Source: Anaerolineae bacterium
GTDB lineage: Bacteria > Chloroflexota > Anaerolineae > Anaerolineales > Anaerolineaceae
Reading direction: 5' to 3'
DNA length: 64,000 nucleotides
Assembly: GCA_013314735.1 (NCBI GenBank)
Contig: JABUFD010000002.1
Location: 868,001 to 932,000 of the forward strand
How positions within the stretch are numbered: position 1 is the first letter of the stretch; every line of letters begins with the position of its first letter. The notes below the pieces were generated by a model. That model did no database searches and was not told the origin of the DNA. It saw only the letters and a list, made by a program, of their open reading frames with translations. This document shows positions 39,437 through 48,650 of this stretch, one piece after another. The translations under genes and the position numbers were made by a program.

Positions 39437-42106
39437 TTAAGCCAACGCGCCCAGCCGTACTGCGCCTACCTTGCGGTAGACCTCATAAGGGTCGCGTTTG
39501 ACCCCATCAACAGTCAGCAGGTCTTCGACCTTGATGCCGAAATGGCGTTCATTTTCCTTCAGGTAGGGCAGGATCAGGTCCCAATCCTCGTCCGCGAGGA
39601 TGGAGAAATGACCGCCATTGAGCTGGTCTTCTTCCACCAGGAAATGCGGGTCGCGGATGTAGATGGCGCCGCCGGAGGCGAGGGAGAACAGGTTGCCGCC
39701 CGGGTAGGGTTCCGGCAGGTCGACCATCTTCCCATGGGCGTCAAATTCCACCCCGTTCAAAATCACGAAACCGCCGCCGTTGAGCGGGTCGCCGGCCATG
39801 AAGGATTCCGCCAGGTAATCGAGGCAGGTGCCGTTGATCACCACGCGTGGGAAGCCTACGGCGTTGATCAAGGGGCGGCCGGCGGCATTGCCGCGGATGA
39901 AAGCCTTCCCGCCCTTGGCGCCGTACATGAAGGTCTGCCCCACGTCGCCATGTACCACGAGCGTGCCGTGGTTGTAAATCTGCGCCAGCTGGTCCTGGGC
40001 GTTGTTGTGGACATAGATGCTGATATTGTCACCGTCGAGTCCGCTGGCGAGGTAATCGCCGGGGGAGCCGTAGGCATCAAAGCGCAGGCGTTCCTTGACC
40101 GGACCCAGGTTGCATCCCAGGAAGCGCTGCCCGCGCCAGTTGTACGAAACCAGGTGATGCCAGCCCTTGCGTGAGGCTTCTGCCAGGAAAATACCGGGGC
40201 CTTCGTCGCCTTCGGCGGGGAAGCCGTCCAGATCCAGGACCAGGGTGGCACCGCGGATGACGGGCGGCTGGAGGGCATGGCGGGTTTCCCAGGTGAAGCG
40301 TGCGGCAAACAAGGGCCTGGCAGGATCGAACAACGGGACTGCGTCCAGCAGCCGCACAATCGCGTCATCGAGCATGGCGAGGAGCCCCGCGCGGCGCTTG
40401 CTGCCGGGATCATAGATGCGGTCGCGGATGCGGCTTAACAGAGCCAGAACCATCACGGTATCACGCACGCCGCTCACGGCTTGCTGCACCCAGTGGTCAA
40501 TAACCGCCTGGATTTCACCAAACGATGCATCCTTGAGCCAGGCCACGATGCGCGGGAAGACCGGATCCACCACTTTTTCAAAATCATTATCCAACGGGCG
40601 GGTGGCGTCAAATATCTGCCTGAGGATCTCACCGGCAATGGGGGAAAGATCAGCCTGTGATGCTCGCGCCTGGGACGGGCGGTGGTGCTGGTCACCAGCG
40701 GTGGTGATCACCTGGCCAAACTTGTTGGTGCACACCAGTTCGCGGATGCTGCCGTAGGGCGCATCGGGGCTGGATTTCTTGACGGCGAAGGAGAAGGAAC
40801 CACCATCGGTATACGATCCACCGCGTGCATTCCAGTAGCGGTCTGCCACCGGGCAGATCGCCGGATTTTCAGCATGCAGGCTGTGCAGGGTGGCGTCAAT
40901 TGCCTGCTTTTCCGAAGCAATCAAGCCCACCTGGTAGCGTTTGCCGTCGGCTTCCGCGTCCACCAGGGCAAATACTTGCGGGCGCAGCATCGAGGTATCG
41001 GTGATACCCAGCAGCTGGCACAGGTCCTTTTCCGGCTGGCTGCGGGCGATGATGAAGAACCATGGTCCATCCGGGGAGGCATGGATATGGGTGGATTGGA
41101 TGGCGCGGTACATCTGCTGTTTTTTCTGCGGCAGCCGGGCGTAGTCACGTTCGGTGGTGGGTGCCAAAGCTTCGATCACAGCTTCCAGCGGGTAATGATA
41201 GCCGCGGTCCAGCAGGTCAAACAGCTGTACGGAGATTTCGGTATCGGTGAGGAAGAGGGGGGTGATGTTGCGCTGGCGCAGGTAGGAGGATACCGCGTGG
41301 TAGTTGGCAAAGTCGCCGTTGTGCACCAGGGCTTCGTTCAGCCCGATGAAGGGGTGTGCCCCGCCGGGATGCCATACACGCCCCTTGGTGGGGTAACGCT
41401 GGTGGGCGATCCACACATGGGCTTCCATCTCTTCCAGTTTGTAATACCGGGCGGCTTCTTCGGCGTAGCCGACGATCTTGAATACCAACAGGTCACGCCC
41501 ATGAGAGAGGACGAAAGCACGCTGTTTGCCCAGTGAGGCGTAGAACTGGGTGTTGAGCTTAAAAGTGTTGCGGAATACGTATTCGTCTTCCAACTCCCGC
41601 GGCAGCAGGTCCGCCAGGTTGGCGGTACGGGCAAAGTCCGCGAGGGCGTCTGCTTTGGCGCGCACAAAATAGCGCACCACGTCCGGTGGGCGCAGTTCCA
41701 GCCCGGGAACTTCGTGGAAGTCCGCCACGGTCTCGATCTCATAACTTTGCAAAACATCGTAGGCCGGGAAGATGCAGCTTTGCTCCACTTCGGCGCGGCT
41801 ATCGGGATCGATATACGCCACCTGCAGCAGGGTGGCATCGCGCAGCACTTCCGGCGAAACGCGCATCTGGACCGGGTTCAACCCCGCTGCGGCGATCCCG
41901 CCGCCTTTGCCGTTGCCGCGGTTGTGCATCTGTTCAGCCGCCTGGAAGAAGTGTTTCCCCACCACCGGGAAGGAGGCGGTCATGCCGACCACCCCGCAGC
42001 CGCCTTCAGCGGCTTCCTCACGGGTCAGGGCCGGATGCAGGTGGGCTTCACGCACGAGGTCCGCGCGGGATGCGATGATACGCTGCAATTGATCCAGTTC
42101 AGCCAT
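39437..42106 (-). CDS. glutamate synthase-type glutaminase (GATase II) fused to GXGXG domain
   Basis: An 889-residue protein, last gene of the etf-glutamate synthase operon. The N-terminal glutamine amidotransferase has EGGCGVVGM, with C37 the nucleophile after a 36-residue propeptide, WIAHQRYPTKG and LVHNGDFANYH (Asn and Gly of the oxyanion hole). The central ~350 residues are less recognisable. The C-terminal part is the GXGXG beta-helix of glutamate synthase large chains (GDVGQTFMYGAKGGKAFIRGNAAG). It should release ammonia from glutamine and channel it. The FMN barrel found between these domains in GltB is a separate gene next door. Its start overlaps that gene by eight bases. Confidence 0.87.
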   Translation of the reverse strand: MAELDQLQRIIASRADLVREAHLHPALTREEAAEGGCGVVGMTASFPVVGKHFFQAAEQMHNRGNGKGGGIAAAGLNPVQMRVSPEVLRDATLLQVAYIDPDSRAEVEQSCIFPAYDVLQSYEIETVADFHEVPGLELRPPDVVRYFVRAKADALADFARTANLADLLPRELEDEYVFRNTFKLNTQFYASLGKQRAFVLSHGRDLLVFKIVGYAEEAARYYKLEEMEAHVWIAHQRYPTKGRVWHPGGAHPFIGLNEALVHNGDFANYHAVSSYLRQRNITPLFLTDTEISVQLFDLLDRGYHYPLEAVIEALAPTTERDYARLPQKKQQMYRAIQSTHIHASPDGPWFFIIARSQPEKDLCQLLGITDTSMLRPQVFALVDAEADGKRYQVGLIASEKQAIDATLHSLHAENPAICPVADRYWNARGGSYTDGGSFSFAVKKSSPDAPYGSIRELVCTNKFGQVITTAGDQHHRPSQARASQADLSPIAGEILRQIFDATRPLDNDFEKVVDPVFPRIVAWLKDASFGEIQAVIDHWVQQAVSGVRDTVMVLALLSRIRDRIYDPGSKRRAGLLAMLDDAIVRLLDAVPLFDPARPLFAARFTWETRHALQPPVIRGATLVLDLDGFPAEGDEGPGIFLAEASRKGWHHLVSYNWRGQRFLGCNLGPVKERLRFDAYGSPGDYLASGLDGDNISIYVHNNAQDQLAQIYNHGTLVVHGDVGQTFMYGAKGGKAFIRGNAAGRPLINAVGFPRVVINGTCLDYLAESFMAGDPLNGGGFVILNGVEFDAHGKMVDLPEPYPGGNLFSLASGGAIYIRDPHFLVEEDQLNGGHFSILADEDWDLILPYLKENERHFGIKVEDLLTVDGVKRDPYEVYRKVGAVRLGALA

Positions 42107-44651
42107 GGTTCACCTCCGTTGTCACGGTATCGCCTTCCTTGTCGAGATACACCAGCAGGTCCGTCCGGCCGCGCAGTTCGCGGATGGATTTCAATCCCAG
42201 CACTTTGACGATGTTGGCCAGTTGGAAGCGCCAGGAGCGGTACATATTCTTGACGCGCTCAGTGCTGGCCACCGGGTCAACCAGTTTGGACATCTCCGGG
42301 TCGGTGGTGGTGATGCCGAAGGGACAGCCCTTGTCTTTTTCGCAGCAGCCCAGGCGCACGCAGCCGATCGCCACCAGGTCTGCGGTACCGACCACAACGC
42401 CGTCCGCGCCCAGGGCAATCGCCTTGGCAATATCAAAGGCGCTGCGCACCCCGCCGGATGCCATGATGACGATCTCGTCGCGGATGCCTTCGTTGATCAG
42501 GAAATGGTGTACCCGGCTGATGGCATACTCAATCGGCAGGGCGATGTTCTTCTTGGCAATTTCCGGCGCGGCGCCGGTGCCGCCGTAAGAACCGTCAATA
42601 TGCAGGATATTGGCACCGGCGTAATACGAACCAACCGCGACCATATCGACATCGGTCGGGGTGGAAACCTTGACCGAGACCAGCGCGCGCGGATTGACCG
42701 TTTTCACCCAGTCGACATGTTTCTTGTGGTCTTCCACCGAGTATACGCTGTGGAAGGGGAAAGGCGAGAACAGGCTGAACCCGCGCACCGCCTGGCGCAT
42801 TTTCGCCACCGCTTCGGTCGATTTGCTGCCCAGCAGGTGTCCGCCCAACCCGGGTTTGGCACCCTGGGCATATTTGAATTCGATGATCGGGGCGCGCTGC
42901 AGGGTTTCTTCACGCACACCAAACAGGCCGGTGGCCACCTGGGTGATCAAATGCTCAGCAAACGGGATCAGGTCGGGCGGGTAGCCGCCTTCACCGGTGG
43001 AGATGAAAGAATGGAATTCCTTCGCCGCCTGTACGCGGGCCAGCATGGTGTTCACGCTGACCGAGCCAAATGACATCCCGCCGCCGTACCACGGTTGGGG
43101 CAGTTCCAGTTCAGGCCGTCCGTCCTTGCGGTGATTGAGCACCAGGGAAAGGTCAACCTCCTGTTCGGCGTTGTCATCCCAGGCAAAGTGTTTCATATCC
43201 TGTTCGAGTTCGAAGCGGAAGCGCATCCGGTCAAAACCACCGTTGGAACGTCCATGGCGGTATTCCATCCCGGAAACCGGCGGCTTGCCGGTGCGGGCCT
43301 GTTCAGCAGTGGCCAGCAGCAGTTGGGTGGTCCAGCGCAGGTCGCCTTCGATCTCGCCGGCGTTGGCTTCCAGCGCGGGCAGGACGGGAACCTCAAGGTC
43401 ATCCGGGCGGCTGAAGAGTTGTCGGAAACGCAGTTCTTCTTCTTTGTAGAACATGGCGCGGCCCAATTCGCCGCGCATACGGCGTACCTCGCGGATACCC
43501 ATGGCGCCCATTGCTTCCAGCAGCTGATCACGCCAGGCGCTGATGATATTGACCAGGCGCTGCGCGCCCCATTCGGCATCAAATTCGCCCGCTTCCACCT
43601 TGCAGCCGTGGCGCACATCTGCCCATAAACCGCAGCCCAACGCCATCAGGATCACAAAATCGATCGCCACAGCATCCGCGCCGCAGATGATCGATTTCGG
43701 CATGTGTTCTGCATTGGCAATCCCGCCGCTGACGATGATCGAGATCTGGTCGCGCAGACTTTCTGCGACCAGGTGGTCATGGATGTCGCGGATGGCATCG
43801 GTCAGGAAACGCTCTCCATCCAGTTCGTGGGCCATTTCATCGGCCACCAGGTGCACGATCGGGCATCCTTCGCGCACCAGCGCATCCACGGCGGCTTTGC
43901 TGGCGGGATTCAGCGGCAGGCGGACAATGAGAGTGGCATCCGGCAGTGCCTGACGGGCATGGCGGTAGAACTCCAGGGCGCGTTCCTGGTTGGGGGCGGC
44001 CAGCGCTACCAGGCTGCTGTGGTGGATCAGGCTCCAATAAAACTGGTCCTCGGTATCCAACAGTGGTACCACGCCATCGAGATACGGCAGCAGGTCATCA
44101 TCCAGGTCGGCAAAGCGCAGCATGGCGAGATTGCCCAATTGGTGGGCGGCCATGGCACGTGCCAGGTGAATGGCGCGGCCGGGGATGTCCAGCGGAATCG
44201 TATCAAAAATGACCGGGACCGGCAGGGTGAGCATGTGGGGCGGGATGTCAATCAGCTCGCCGTCCTGCGAAAAATGCAGGCGCAGCGGACGCGGGCCGAG
44301 GTCGACCGTGGTGGAAATGTACTCACGCCCATGGATCCCGTCGCGGGTGGGGCGCACAATCTCGGACATATCGAGCCAGATGGCATCGAAACCGGCTTCA
44401 GAGAATCCGCCGCCGTAACCGGCGCCAGAGATGGGAATTTTGCCGGTTTCGGCCTGGTACCAGGTCTGGGTGATGATTTGTGGAGTCCAATGTGGATCCC
44501 CGCCATAACGGCCGTTGGGGAGTCCCTGGTGGCCGTACTTGACATAATCATCCATCTCATCCTTGCGGAAGGTAATGGGATAATCAAATGGCGCCGGAGC
44601 GGGTTTGGTGGTGATATGGTAGCGGCTGCTGTGATGGTCAGGGCTGCTCAT
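42099..44651 (-). CDS. glutamate synthase FMN-domain protein with internal tandem duplication
   Basis: An 850-residue protein with two copies of one unit. Copy 2 (about 440-836) is an intact FMN/iron-sulfur synthase domain: GGGMSFGSVSVNT, KPGLGGHLLGSKST, DGSYGGTGAAPE, ASGGVRSAFDIAKAIALGAD and the Cys cluster at C764, C769, C770 and C776. Copy 1 (about 55-403) keeps the same beginning (WTPQIITQTW versus WTTQLLLATA), the same VSGGIANAEHMPKSIICGAD strand (308-326) and the same RxxRG end, but lacks the FMN loop and has only C340 and C350. It should convert 2-oxoglutarate plus ammonia into glutamate with electrons from a partner. Four bases overlap etfA. Confidence 0.88.
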   Translation of the reverse strand: MSSPDHHSSRYHITTKPAPAPFDYPITFRKDEMDDYVKYGHQGLPNGRYGGDPHWTPQIITQTWYQAETGKIPISGAGYGGGFSEAGFDAIWLDMSEIVRPTRDGIHGREYISTTVDLGPRPLRLHFSQDGELIDIPPHMLTLPVPVIFDTIPLDIPGRAIHLARAMAAHQLGNLAMLRFADLDDDLLPYLDGVVPLLDTEDQFYWSLIHHSSLVALAAPNQERALEFYRHARQALPDATLIVRLPLNPASKAAVDALVREGCPIVHLVADEMAHELDGERFLTDAIRDIHDHLVAESLRDQISIIVSGGIANAEHMPKSIICGADAVAIDFVILMALGCGLWADVRHGCKVEAGEFDAEWGAQRLVNIISAWRDQLLEAMGAMGIREVRRMRGELGRAMFYKEEELRFRQLFSRPDDLEVPVLPALEANAGEIEGDLRWTTQLLLATAEQARTGKPPVSGMEYRHGRSNGGFDRMRFRFELEQDMKHFAWDDNAEQEVDLSLVLNHRKDGRPELELPQPWYGGGMSFGSVSVNTMLARVQAAKEFHSFISTGEGGYPPDLIPFAEHLITQVATGLFGVREETLQRAPIIEFKYAQGAKPGLGGHLLGSKSTEAVAKMRQAVRGFSLFSPFPFHSVYSVEDHKKHVDWVKTVNPRALVSVKVSTPTDVDMVAVGSYYAGANILHIDGSYGGTGAAPEIAKKNIALPIEYAISRVHHFLINEGIRDEIVIMASGGVRSAFDIAKAIALGADGVVVGTADLVAIGCVRLGCCEKDKGCPFGITTTDPEMSKLVDPVASTERVKNMYRSWRFQLANIVKVLGLKSIRELRGRTDLLVYLDKEGDTVTTEVNHG

Positions 44652-45661
44652 CGGGCACTCCTTTCTTTTTCCTGGCGGACCAGTTCAGTGATCAAGGGCA
44701 CCATCGTGAACAGGTCACCCACCACGCCCAGGTCAGCCACCTGGAAGATTTGCGCGTCGGGATCGGTGTTGATGGCAATAATCGTTTCGGCGGTTTGCAT
44801 GCCGACGATGTGCTGTACTGCGCCGGAAATACCGCAGGCAATGTACAGCTGCGGGGCAATCGTCTTGCCGGAAAGTCCCACTTGCTTGGGATAAGGACGC
44901 CAGCCCTGCTCCACCGCGGCGCGCGAGCTGCCCACGGTGCCGCCGAGGATATGCGCCAATTGTTCGAGGATCAGGAAATTTTCCTTGTTCTGCATCCCCT
45001 TGCCGCCGGACACTACAATATCGGCATCCTCAATCGGCAGTTCATCGCTCTGGTCGGGGATGAAGCGTTCCAGCGTCATGCGCGCGGCACACAGGTCAGC
45101 CGGGATGTTGACCTCGATGATCTCCCCGGTGCGGCTGGCATCCGCTGGCAGCGGACGCGCCGACTTGGGGCGGACGGTCGACATCTGCGGCCGCGCATCC
45201 GGCGTTTTGATGGTGGCCATGATGTTGCCGCCGATGGCGGGGCGGGTCTGGTGCAGGTTGCCGGTTTCCGGATCGATCGAAAGCCCGGTGCAGTCGGCGG
45301 TCAGACCCGCATGGGTCTGGATGGCAACATACGGCATCACCGTGCGACCGGTGGTGGTCGCAGCGGCGATAAACACCTCCGGGTGGTAGGTTTGCACCAG
45401 GTGCTTGATCACACGCGCATGCGATTCGGCGATGAAATGCGCCAACTGCGGATGGCGGACGAGGTAGACCACATCGGCGCCATGGGCGATGAGGGATTCC
45501 AGTTCCCCTTCGCCAAGGGTATCGGCCAGCACCACCGAACACAGTTTGCAGCCGCGGTCGTTCGCCAGGCCGCGACCCCATGCCAATAATTCGTACGAAA
45601 CACTGTGCAGGTGGCCGTGTTTGACCTCTGCCAGCGTCCAGATATCTTTCCATTCAGTCAT
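44648..45661 (-). CDS. etfA: electron transfer flavoprotein subunit alpha
   Basis: A 337-residue protein. The FAD-binding C-terminal half reads VSGGKGMQNKENF, VGSSRAAVEQGW, KQVGLSGKTIAPQLYIACG and IIAINTDPDAQIFQVADLGVVGD, the EtfA signature. It carries FAD and forms a heterodimer with EtfB that passes electrons between dehydrogenases and other flavoproteins. ATG 45661, with GGAGG seven bases upstream, is preferred over a GTG two codons earlier. It lies directly between etfB and the glutamate synthase genes, with an overlap of four bases to the latter. No acyl-CoA dehydrogenase is present nearby, so the partner is unclear. Confidence 0.93.
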   Translation of the reverse strand: MTEWKDIWTLAEVKHGHLHSVSYELLAWGRGLANDRGCKLCSVVLADTLGEGELESLIAHGADVVYLVRHPQLAHFIAESHARVIKHLVQTYHPEVFIAAATTTGRTVMPYVAIQTHAGLTADCTGLSIDPETGNLHQTRPAIGGNIMATIKTPDARPQMSTVRPKSARPLPADASRTGEIIEVNIPADLCAARMTLERFIPDQSDELPIEDADIVVSGGKGMQNKENFLILEQLAHILGGTVGSSRAAVEQGWRPYPKQVGLSGKTIAPQLYIACGISGAVQHIVGMQTAETIIAINTDPDAQIFQVADLGVVGDLFTMVPLITELVRQEKERSAR

Positions 45662-45675
45662 ATTCACTCCTCCGC

Positions 45676-46476
45676 TTAGATCAGGTTGCGCGCTTTAAGC
45701 AGTTCCACCACGCGGCGTGCGGCTTCACCATAGTCTTCCGGGGCACGGGCGTACACCAGGTCCGCCTTGCGGGTAACCTGCGGGCGGTCGATCTTGACCA
45801 CGCGGGTGGGGGAGCCGTTGAGGCCGAGATTGGCCGGTTCCGCCTCGATTTCTTCGGGTCCCCAGGTGGTGATCTCTGCCCTGGCCGCATTCAGCTTCTG
45901 GCGCAGGGTAGGAAAGCGCGGCGCGGCCACCTCCTTGATCACGGTCAGCACGGCCGGCAGGGGGGTGCGCAGGATTTCAACACCGTCCTCCACCATGCGC
46001 TCAATGCGCAGCTGCCCGGATGGGATCAGGGATACCGCGCTGACATAGGTAGCCAGCGGCAGGTTAAGGAAGGAGGCAATCCCCGGACCGACCTGCCCGG
46101 TGTCGCCGTCGGTGGCGCGCTCACCGCAAATGATCAGGTCAAAGTCGCCGATCTTGCGGATGGCTTGCACCAGTGCATAAGATGTGGCCCAGGTGTCGGA
46201 CCCGGCAAATTGCCGGTGGCTGAGCAGCACGGCATCATCGCACCCCATCGCCAGTGCCTCACGCAGGGCGAACGCCGCATTGGGCGGACCCATGGTGAGG
46301 GCGATCACCTCGCCGCCCTGGTTCTGGTCGCGCAGGCGCAGTGCGGTTTCGATCGCATAGTGGTCGAGGGGGTTGATGATGCTGGCCAGGCCGGAACGCA
46401 GCATGGTTCCAGTTTCAGGGTCCATTTTGACATTGCTGGTCTCAGGCACCTGTTTGATCGGCACAATAATTCGCAT
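45676..46476 (-). CDS. etfB: electron transfer flavoprotein subunit beta
   Basis: A 266-residue protein starting MRIIVPIKQVPETSNVKMDP. DLIICGERATDGDTGQVGP and LPLATYVSAV are the EtfB nucleotide-binding region, and PAVLTVIKEVAAPRFPTL the family tail. It is the smaller half of the flavoprotein dimer. ATG 46476 follows AGAGG by eight bases; the GTG at 46485 overlaps that site. TATAAT on the minus strand at 46579-46584 is the likely operon promoter. The presence of AMP versus a second FAD, which separates housekeeping from bifurcating types, cannot be settled by eye. Confidence 0.93.
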   Translation of the reverse strand: MRIIVPIKQVPETSNVKMDPETGTMLRSGLASIINPLDHYAIETALRLRDQNQGGEVIALTMGPPNAAFALREALAMGCDDAVLLSHRQFAGSDTWATSYALVQAIRKIGDFDLIICGERATDGDTGQVGPGIASFLNLPLATYVSAVSLIPSGQLRIERMVEDGVEILRTPLPAVLTVIKEVAAPRFPTLRQKLNAARAEITTWGPEEIEAEPANLGLNGSPTRVVKIDRPQVTRKADLVYARAPEDYGEAARRVVELLKARNLI

Positions 46477-46485
46477 CGGTTTCAC

Positions 46486-47081: not shown

Positions 47082-48650
47082 ATGAAATCCAGACGTGTGA
47101 TGATCGGATTCTTAATGGTGATGATGGCATTTTCCATGGCGTGCAGCTGTGGCTTGTTGAACAACATCCTCAACAAGGGAGATGGAGAGCAGGCCGTTGG
47201 CGGTGGGGATGAGGTCAGCCTGGGCGAGGAATTCCGCAGTGATTTCGGCGGATTCGCTTTTCAGCAAATTCCGGGCTATGATACCGAAGAGGCCTTTGGC
47301 ATTGTGCAAATGACCGCTCCCGGCGGCGACGTGCAAAGCGGTCCCGGCATGCTCTTTACTGGTGGTTTGAACACCGAAAAGTTGAGTTTTGAAGATGCGA
47401 TCGGTAACCTTAAGGATTCCACCCCTGATTATGTCTACGAAGAACCGGAAGAGATTGAAGTGGACGGCGAAGATGGCGTCGCGCTTGATTTTACCGGGGT
47501 ATATGAAGGGAAAGACGTGGTGGGGCGGATCGTGATCGTGATGATTGGTGATTATCACCAGTTCATCTGCATGATGGTTGCCCCGCCGGACGATTGGGAT
47601 GAGGTGCAGCCGCTGTATCACTCCGTCCTTGACACGGTGAAATTCTTCGAACCGGACCCCGATGCGCTTGATCTGGGTGAAGGGGAGAGTTGGGAGGAGG
47701 CAGAGGAAGAACCATTGCAGGAACAGGTCTTGCCGACCGCGGCGCCGGTGGCGGTGGAATCTGCCATTATGCGCCAATGGGCTGTGGCGGCGGTGGCCAG
47801 TGACCAGTACGGCGACAATGCCTGGGGAGCGGTGCAGGCGGTGGGTGAACCGGATGTGGATGAATGCGGTGACAGTACCTATGCCTGGGCGGCTCTTTCG
47901 CCCACCTCCTACTCGTGGATCGAACTGACTTACACCACCCCGGTCAACCCGACCGAGATCAACATTTACCAGAACTACAACCCTTCAGCCGTGGTGGAAG
48001 TGGATATCATCACGGTGGACGGCGAGGAATATATCGCCTGGACCGGCACCCCGAAAGAAGTCGATTACTGCCCCGATCTGATGACGATCACGATCGACCT
48101 GGTGGAGCCGCTGGCGGTCAACAAGGTGCGGGTGTATATTGACCAGAGCTATTTCAATGATTGGACCGAAATTGACGCGGTGGAACTGGTGGGCATGCCG
48201 GCCGGTAACGGCCAGCCGCTGGACCAGCCGCAGCCCACGGGCGATGCTGAGACGCCGTGGTCCTTCGGGCTGACCGGGTGCGAAGACCAGATTGTCAATG
48301 GCACCGATGGCTGGCTCGACGTGGACAGCAACCAGTTGATCCTGTTGTTTGACGGCGGCAGCGTGGTGGTGCCCATGCCGGATGACTGGCGGGAACATAA
48401 TTTTATGGAGCTGGGTGCTTTTGTCCCCTGGGAGACGCCGCTGCCCACCGCGCAAATTCAATTCTTCGACCGCGACACCATTTACTACACCGATTCAGGC
48501 AGTATCTGGTGGGATTACGCCGATGCCACTCATATCACCGGCATGTTGGATTTCAAGGCGAGTGAATATGATACATTGAAAATGACCCTGACCAGCCCGG
48601 TGTGCCAGGTGGGGGTGTGGGTGGCCTTCTCCAATATATCGGTGGAATAG
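47082..48650 (+). CDS. lipoprotein with discoidin-like domain
   Basis: A 522-residue secreted lipoprotein. A positively charged signal peptide (MKSRRVMIGFLMVMMAFSMAC) ends in lipobox SMAC with C21. Residues 45-195 form a domain with many acidic residues. From about 225 to 370 there is a discoidin/F5-8 type C-like beta sandwich (WAVAAVASDQYGDNAWGAVQ, then YSWIELTYTTPVNPTEINIY and YFNDWTEIDAVELVG), usual for sugar or surface binding. The last 130 residues form another beta domain. AGGAGG precedes the ATG. Function unknown; likely surface attachment or substrate binding. Confidence 0.75.
   Translation: MKSRRVMIGFLMVMMAFSMACSCGLLNNILNKGDGEQAVGGGDEVSLGEEFRSDFGGFAFQQIPGYDTEEAFGIVQMTAPGGDVQSGPGMLFTGGLNTEKLSFEDAIGNLKDSTPDYVYEEPEEIEVDGEDGVALDFTGVYEGKDVVGRIVIVMIGDYHQFICMMVAPPDDWDEVQPLYHSVLDTVKFFEPDPDALDLGEGESWEEAEEEPLQEQVLPTAAPVAVESAIMRQWAVAAVASDQYGDNAWGAVQAVGEPDVDECGDSTYAWAALSPTSYSWIELTYTTPVNPTEINIYQNYNPSAVVEVDIITVDGEEYIAWTGTPKEVDYCPDLMTITIDLVEPLAVNKVRVYIDQSYFNDWTEIDAVELVGMPAGNGQPLDQPQPTGDAETPWSFGLTGCEDQIVNGTDGWLDVDSNQLILLFDGGSVVVPMPDDWREHNFMELGAFVPWETPLPTAQIQFFDRDTIYYTDSGSIWWDYADATHITGMLDFKASEYDTLKMTLTSPVCQVGVWVAFSNISVE

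Follow-up and report, generated by a model that had tools for sequence, protein, structure and literature searches.

A predicted glutamate synthase supplied by an electron transfer flavoprotein in an Anaerolineae bacterium, with similar gene pairs in archaea

From where does a glutamate synthase without GltD obtain its electrons, when the genes of an electron transfer flavoprotein (ETF) directly adjoin it? The question is raised by a four-gene cluster in a stretch of 64,000 nucleotides from an Anaerolineae bacterium (contig JABUFD010000002.1, positions 868,001 to 932,000), referred to below as the window. Glutamate synthase is a main entry of nitrogen into metabolism, and the forms known so far draw electrons from NAD(P)H via GltD, from ferredoxin and, probably, from F420 via an FrhB-like subunit. 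The cluster lies on the minus strand, as do all its features given below, and consists, in this order, of etfB (45676..46476), etfA (44648..45661), the gene for a flavin mononucleotide (FMN) subunit (42099..44651), and the gene for a subunit with glutaminase and GXGXG domains (39437..42106). With ATG starts the successive spacings are 14, -4, and -8 bases, in agreement with the initial annotation of the window. The ATG of etfB, chosen instead of the GTG at 46485 in the program-made list of open reading frames (ORFs), is preceded at 5 bases by a ribosome-binding-like sequence, AGAGGTGA.

We suggest that the four genes probably encode one ETF-dependent glutamate synthase, powered by EtfAB. This suggestion is based on the genes themselves and how closely they are spaced, the identities of their domains, the recurrent pairing, its restriction to a ferredoxin-free fused form of the synthase, and the cofactor marks of the ETF. 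The glutaminase subunit would free ammonia from glutamine, the FMN subunit would add it to 2-oxoglutarate and reduce the imine to glutamate, and EtfAB would stand in for GltD or ferredoxin. The flavin adenine dinucleotide (FAD) of EtfB would be reduced by NADH; EtfA, by way of its mobile FAD, would then pass single electrons through a three-Cys iron-sulfur cluster to FMN. The complex of four proteins, the electron route, and NADH as the donor are all predictions from sequence.

The FMN subunit, an 850-residue chain, has the FMN/synthase barrel of a large glutamate synthase subunit both by Pfam (PF01645, 6.5e-100, 335 bits, covering the C-terminal half) and by fold. Its predicted structure (17 sequences, pLDDT 75) aligns nearly full length to residues ~451-1182 of GltB, that is, to the central and FMN domains, with Z 27-31 over 586-602 residues, a root-mean-square deviation of 5.2-5.6, and 22-24% identity; Foldseek gave a concordant result. 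The single barrel initially annotated for this protein is therefore corrected to two barrels in one ferredoxin-free chain: an N-terminal one, aligned to the GltB central domain (residues ~50-420, 43392..44504), and a C-terminal FMN/synthase barrel (residues ~430-840, 42132..43364), which contains KYAQGAKPGLGGHL. The latter holds a three-Cys iron-sulfur motif, C764-x5-C770-x5-C776 (42324..42362), of a putative [3Fe-4S] cluster, with spacing x5/x5 versus x5/x4 in GltB. The stretch KxAQGAKPGxGG is common to both proteins. Two active synthase sites in the FMN subunit were considered and rejected, as the N-terminal barrel is without the cluster Cys pattern and aligns to the central domain.

Class II glutaminases are characterized by an N-terminal Cys, exposed by processing, and by RxxT, NG, and D residues. 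In the second synthase protein, of 889 residues, Cys37 (41996..41998), invariant in a seven-row alignment, is the presumed nucleophile after predicted removal of a 36-residue leader, and HQRYPT, HNGD, and TDTE are all present; the GATase_6 match (26.7 bits) falls just below the 27-bit cut-off. The GXGXG beta-helix occupies residues 674-821 (39644..40087; PF01493, 36 bits, cut-off 32.5). The predicted structure of this protein is of low quality (pLDDT 63) and matches the fold of GltB weakly. Since the FMN subunit aligns to the central and FMN domains of GltB and the second protein holds the two outer domains, the two genes represent a GltB cut in two, with the middle domains moved into a separate chain and the outer domains fused.

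In the genome (4.09 Mb assembly, 95.5% complete) the glutaminase/GXGXG gene is the single PF01493 match and PF01645 matches the FMN gene (302 bits) and, partially, two other places (21.8 and 20.4 bits, cut-off 20.4). The initial annotation saw no gltD, and this holds genome-wide: a PF14691 search found no stand-alone gltD, the subunit that marks an NADPH-dependent synthase, and its sole match lies on another contig inside an Nfn-like protein (L220:14829-17159), in which both Nfn subunits are fused in one chain of 776 residues. Two glutamate-dehydrogenase-family genes (PF00208) are present, so the synthase is not the sole possible route of ammonia assimilation. The genome contains three etfAB pairs. 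One (L049) adjoins an acyl-CoA dehydrogenase, another (L050) adjoins zinc-type dehydrogenase and xylose-isomerase-like genes, and the third is that of the cluster, near which no acyl-CoA or other ETF-linked dehydrogenase was seen, as annotated earlier, among the ORFs of 34-52 kb of the window, judged by eye. No FrhB-like protein was found by Pfam among the four products, or by eye among the flanking ORFs.

Loci for comparison came from searching GTDB contigs for matches to the C-terminal barrel, the best 80 of at least 510 loci being kept; relatives added from further genomes brought the set to 112 loci including the window, and to 99 after 13 duplicates were dropped. In 40 of these the FMN barrels bear ferredoxin motifs. 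Such motifs are missing from 29 loci with split barrels and from 25 with fused ones, the window among the latter; in two further loci a long linker joins the fused barrels, and three are unclassed. In the tree of FMN subunits (91 rows, 8 too short ones left out) the fused form is a single clade of 23 rows with support 99. A four-Cys iron-sulfur motif, roughly CxRCxxCExGRGC, occurs in 39 of the 40 ferredoxin-bearing and 28 of the 29 split loci (one unscored in each class), both long-linker loci, all three unclassed ones, and 20 Thermoplasmatota loci, and its second Cys is absent from all 25 fused loci. Being without the fourth Cys and without ferredoxin motifs, the fused form thus appears to have lost both ferredoxin modules and one cluster ligand, and a possible change from [4Fe-4S] to [3Fe-4S] would be tied to the loss of the modules. 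The glutaminase patterns could be scored in 85 loci, where the match was of sufficient length: all four are present in 44, only the strict HQR[YF]P[TS] is missing in 40, and two are missing in one. In a separate case, two TGA codons lie in frame within the FMN-C gene of genome G082 (L043:353-418, minus strand), the first coinciding with the last conserved Cys of the cluster and the second following 21 codons later; they possibly reflect selenocysteine, a sequencing error, or decay.

Linkage of the ETF genes was assessed by tblastn with the window EtfA and EtfB against the synthase loci. The etfBA genes stand beside the synthase in seven of the 99 loci, all fused (7/25, versus 0/74 for the other forms; Fisher 3e-5, uncorrected for relatedness). 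Apart from the window these are archaeal: a Micrarchaeota bin (L062), two Lokiarchaeota loci (L065 and L074), one from Thermoplasmatota (L067), and L165 and L166 (genomes G436 and G404), which belong to the same phylum as L074. All six archaeal fused loci have the linkage, and since the same adjacency recurs in them, it is more than chance. The archaeal order is FMN subunit-glutaminase/GXGXG-etfB-etfA, and that of the window is etfB-etfA-FMN subunit-glutaminase/GXGXG. In L074 and L165 the four genes overlap successively by 4, 4, and 1 bases, and glnA (PF00120) ends 78-79 bases before them. In the assemblies G318 (L074) and G315 (L062), which are bins of unstated completeness, PF00766 matches nothing but the linked EtfA; G316 and G317 have two and three matches, respectively.

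Further archaeal synthase loci served as controls. No etf genes were found at any of ten Asgard loci of other types (some on short contigs, two duplicating members of the 99) or of 20 Thermoplasmatota loci. The Asgard search matched 42 of 227 genomes at 1e-50, regions being examined for 12 besides L065 and L074, and the rest were mostly matches of 31-41%; in Thermoplasmatota 30 of 389 genomes matched, and 20 of the 29 new ones were examined.

Two separate origins of the pairing are most likely. When 29 EtfBA pairs were placed in a tree, the six linked ones from archaea formed a clade of their own (100/100), excluding the other EtfBA read from G316 and G317, and the window pair grouped with its paralog from the same genome, L050 (100/100); in 301 Chloroflexota genomes no EtfB ranking below L050 exceeds 53% identity. 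These placements suggest separate recruitment of an ETF in the two lineages, which would be better evidence of a functional link than one inherited operon. A single ancestral linkage followed by rearrangement is less likely, as the window EtfBA sits with its own paralog. An old common source of both is possible, given the unstarred node (86/91) that joins the window, L050, L200, and archaeal pairs.

The sequence of EtfAB itself points to the bifurcating type. The nearest solved relatives of the window EtfB, whose PF01012 match is at 2.4e-45, all come from bifurcating ETFs: CarD, the EtfB of C. difficile, LctB, and the EtfB proteins of T. maritima and A. fermentans (9e-66 to 3e-52), with human, Paracoccus, and methylotroph ETFs at 1e-25 and weaker. 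The window EtfA (PF01012 and PF00766) is nearest to the same five ETFs, CarE, 4kpu, 7koe, 5ol2, and 7qh2 (9e-90 to 8e-60; next 1e-44). Passages of PMC9232219 give for EtfB the beta-FAD stretch DGDTAQVGP, absent from non-bifurcating ETFs, the NAD stretch RXFXG, and SPT. The window EtfB has all three stretches of group 2 bifurcating ETFs, as DGDTGQVGP (46084..46110), RQFAG (46201..46215), and SPT, so that for this subunit the check for bifurcating-type residues proposed at annotation came out positive. The small residue expected at Gly123 of bifurcating EtfB, according to passages of PMC12630350, is probably the Gly of DGDT, if the A. woodii numbering in the passages of PMC9232219 is used to equate them. 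In the excerpted text of PMC10734219, RPXFGG is given for group 2 ETFs, with its Arg next to the bifurcating flavin, and is listed under EtfB of that complex; the EtfA of the window has RPAIGG (45227..45244), in which this Arg is kept and Phe is replaced by Ile. Archaeal linked EtfA proteins have RPAFGG in five cases and RPAYGG in one, and all six bear an N-terminal two-motif ferredoxin domain, which is missing from the window EtfA. All six archaeal linked EtfB proteins have DGDT[AG]Q[VI]G and SPT.

Several observations weigh against EtfAB as the donor. Eighteen fused loci are without linked ETF genes, six of them cut too short to judge; in the other 12, all bacterial and readable for 2.4 kb or more to either side, etfAB is absent, and the idea that the linkage is general for the fused clade was rejected for bacteria. 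The nearest relative, L051 (82% identical), ends inside the FMN gene, before the expected place of etfBA, and a search of its 2.0 Mb assembly found no EtfB. The archaeal linked cases named above are metagenome bins, and, forming one clade, they count as few events. The full RXFXG is present in only one of the six archaeal linked EtfB proteins, so the NADH site is less sure there than in the window, and the final P of DGDTAQVGP in two. Finally, the ETF lineage of the window pair may serve other substrates, since its closest pair, L050, stands beside zinc-type dehydrogenase and xylose-isomerase-like genes.

An EtfB was found in 13 of the 15 searched genomes with an unlinked fused synthase, including all 12 with readable loci, the best being 32-45% identical to that of the window; an unlinked ETF may therefore be the donor in those 12. 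No other redox partner adjoining the synthase was seen by eye in nine of the 12 (L042, L052, L059, L056, L063, L066, L077, L084, and L124), where the neighbours include glutamine-dependent NAD synthetase (L059, L066, L077) and AraC/Ada-type and EamA genes between the synthase genes (L052, L056, L063). The donor of the unlinked bacterial fused enzymes would thus be an ETF encoded elsewhere, free ferredoxin, or something else. The initial annotation had EtfAB feeding the synthase, asked whether the gene order is kept in related genomes without gltD, and regarded free separation of the two gene pairs in relatives as refuting. Recurrence in seven fused loci, two likely recruitments, and the EtfB marks bear this out in part; in the 12 readable bacterial relatives the order is not kept, and to that extent the separation is real.

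How the electrons would be divided is less certain than their destination. NADH has a potential of about -320 mV and that of 2-oxoglutarate plus ammonium/glutamate is far more positive, so bifurcation to ferredoxin would be feasible. Bifurcation by EtfAB, with ferredoxin receiving one electron of every two, is in our estimate a substantial possibility somewhat short of an even chance. Held a shade more tentatively is the full proposal of a bifurcating synthase, in which two NADH would be oxidised, with two electrons going downhill into glutamate formation and two uphill to ferredoxin, and which would have arisen at least twice from different EtfAB lineages, built on a synthase minus its ferredoxin modules and one cluster Cys. 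It is rather unlikely, though worth serious attention, that EtfAB is instead a plain NADH bridge of bifurcating ancestry, which passes both electrons to the synthase and none to ferredoxin; this shares the core of our proposal. The beta-FAD and NAD marks could persist in a non-bifurcating descendant of a bifurcating ETF, the window EtfA has no ferredoxin domain and has Ile for Phe in RPXFGG, and non-bifurcating EtfABs close to bifurcating ones are mentioned in passages of PMC9232219. The two-motif ferredoxin domain of the archaeal EtfA proteins, needless for such a bridge, argues the other way.

A more distant reading takes etfBA for a mere neighbour, co-transcribed with the synthase and serving a dehydrogenase elsewhere, with the synthase using free ferredoxin like the ferredoxin-dependent enzymes. 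The 12 unlinked relatives and the modest identity of EtfB in the 13 genomes fit this, as do the two unlinked pairs whose neighbours were read, one adjoining an acyl-CoA dehydrogenase (L209) and the other behind HdrA-like and CCG-domain genes (L208). We nevertheless judge it improbable in view of the archaeal recurrence with glnA and translational overlaps, and of the two archaeal genomes in which the linked EtfA is the sole one found. The L208 pair (L208:419-6809, genome G307) directly follows genes for a fusion of an HdrA-like protein with an MvhD/FlpD domain and for an iron-sulfur protein with a CCG domain, another possible unusual ETF partner. There is also a slight chance that the product is a related amino compound rather than glutamate; N-methylglutamate synthase makes such a compound, and the identity to GltB over the aligned structure is low. 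The KxAQGAKPGxGG stretch in common with GltB, its being the only GXGXG gene found in the genome, and the presence of glnA, amtB, and glnK near some members of the family, with glnA confirmed by Pfam in L074 and L165, speak for glutamate. Least probable by far is a reverse reaction, a confurcating complex oxidising glutamate, for which passages of PMC9232219 on Ldh-EtfAB offer a precedent among ETF complexes; the intact glutaminase residues fit the synthetic direction, and glnA adjoins the genes in L074 and L165.

Additional neighbours were identified both in the window and across the family. Around the cluster, promoter and terminator scans gave numbers no different from shuffles; the scanned flanking genes of the plus strand include one for an AraC-type regulator at lower coordinates than the cluster and one for a xanthine/uracil-type permease at higher coordinates. 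A 522-residue ORF at 47082-48650 has a lipoprotein-like start and no Pfam match at 0.001. Neighbours were clustered over 86 loci, made up of the 80 kept ones, five relatives, and the window and containing one duplicate, giving groups of MvhD/FlpD in 24 loci, MetV in 16, MetF in 15, GlnA in 13, HdrA-like proteins with GltD-like domains in nine, Amt in eight, and HdrC-like proteins in seven; further groups, including NAD synthetase, EamA, and AraC/Ada genes, occur in seven or eight. One member each of the MvhD, MetV, MetF, GlnA, HdrA-GltD-like, and HdrC-like groups was checked by Pfam, and the others are named by clustering. At seven loci (L087, L090, L105, L113, L120, L123, and L126) a ferredoxin-bearing synthase lies beside some or all of MetF, MetV, MvhD, HdrB/C-like proteins, and the HdrA-GltD-like fusion, which hints that a bifurcating Hdr/Met-type complex may feed it there. 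An NAD synthetase gene borders those of the fused synthase, or the ETF genes that accompany them, at L066:7602-9407, L077:7401-9167, L059:8910-10664, L065:6617-8266, and L165:2729-4384, with a 4-base overlap in two cases (assigned by Pfam in L066 and L165 and by likeness elsewhere); in L165 (Pfam) and L065 (clustering) a gene of the glutamine-dependent type follows the etf genes.

No ETF-linked glutamate synthase was found in the titles and abstract openings of the open-licence literature on glutamate synthase or GOGAT together with ETF or bifurcation, nor in the passages of PMC6085437, PMC6037941, PMC6046458, PMC8097209, PMC10746287, PMC5736913, and PMC7478625, in line with the earlier remark that none was known. 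The cluster and its archaeal recurrence suggest that glutamate synthesis may be powered in a manner that we did not find described in print. If this is true, the ETF-driven form is a further electron input for glutamate synthase, and ETFs gain an acceptor unlike those found described for them; the prediction extends to Asgard archaea, where the pair adjoins glnA. If the enzyme bifurcates, there would be an added coupling site between nitrogen assimilation and the ferredoxin pool, and ammonia assimilation would recover part of its cost as low-potential reductant.

Among known systems, GltBD (Azospirillum, 1ea0/6s6s) has in common with the window enzyme the central and FMN domains to which the FMN subunit aligns, the glutaminase and GXGXG domains, and the three-Cys motif, but in the window GltB is in two chains with the outer domains fused, and EtfAB genes are present instead of gltD, which was not found. 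The ferredoxin-dependent glutamate synthase (Synechocystis, 1ofd/1llw) likewise has two barrels by fold and no GltD, whereas the window enzyme is divided into two chains and has, in place of free ferredoxin, a linked ETF of the NADH type. The nearest solved relatives of the window EtfB and EtfA belong to the bifurcating complexes Bcd-EtfAB, CarCDE, Ldh-EtfAB, and EtfABCX, which share the beta-FAD and NAD marks; the window operon is without an acyl-CoA dehydrogenase, a lactate dehydrogenase, or EtfCX, and the putative partner is a glutamate synthase. As a precedent for a foreign input module, the F420-dependent glutamate synthase of methanogens comes nearest, as described in passages of PMC3087415 and PMC9012536: it too has several subunits and a foreign electron-input module, which there is an FrhB-like protein with F420 (subunit 4) and in the window would be EtfAB.

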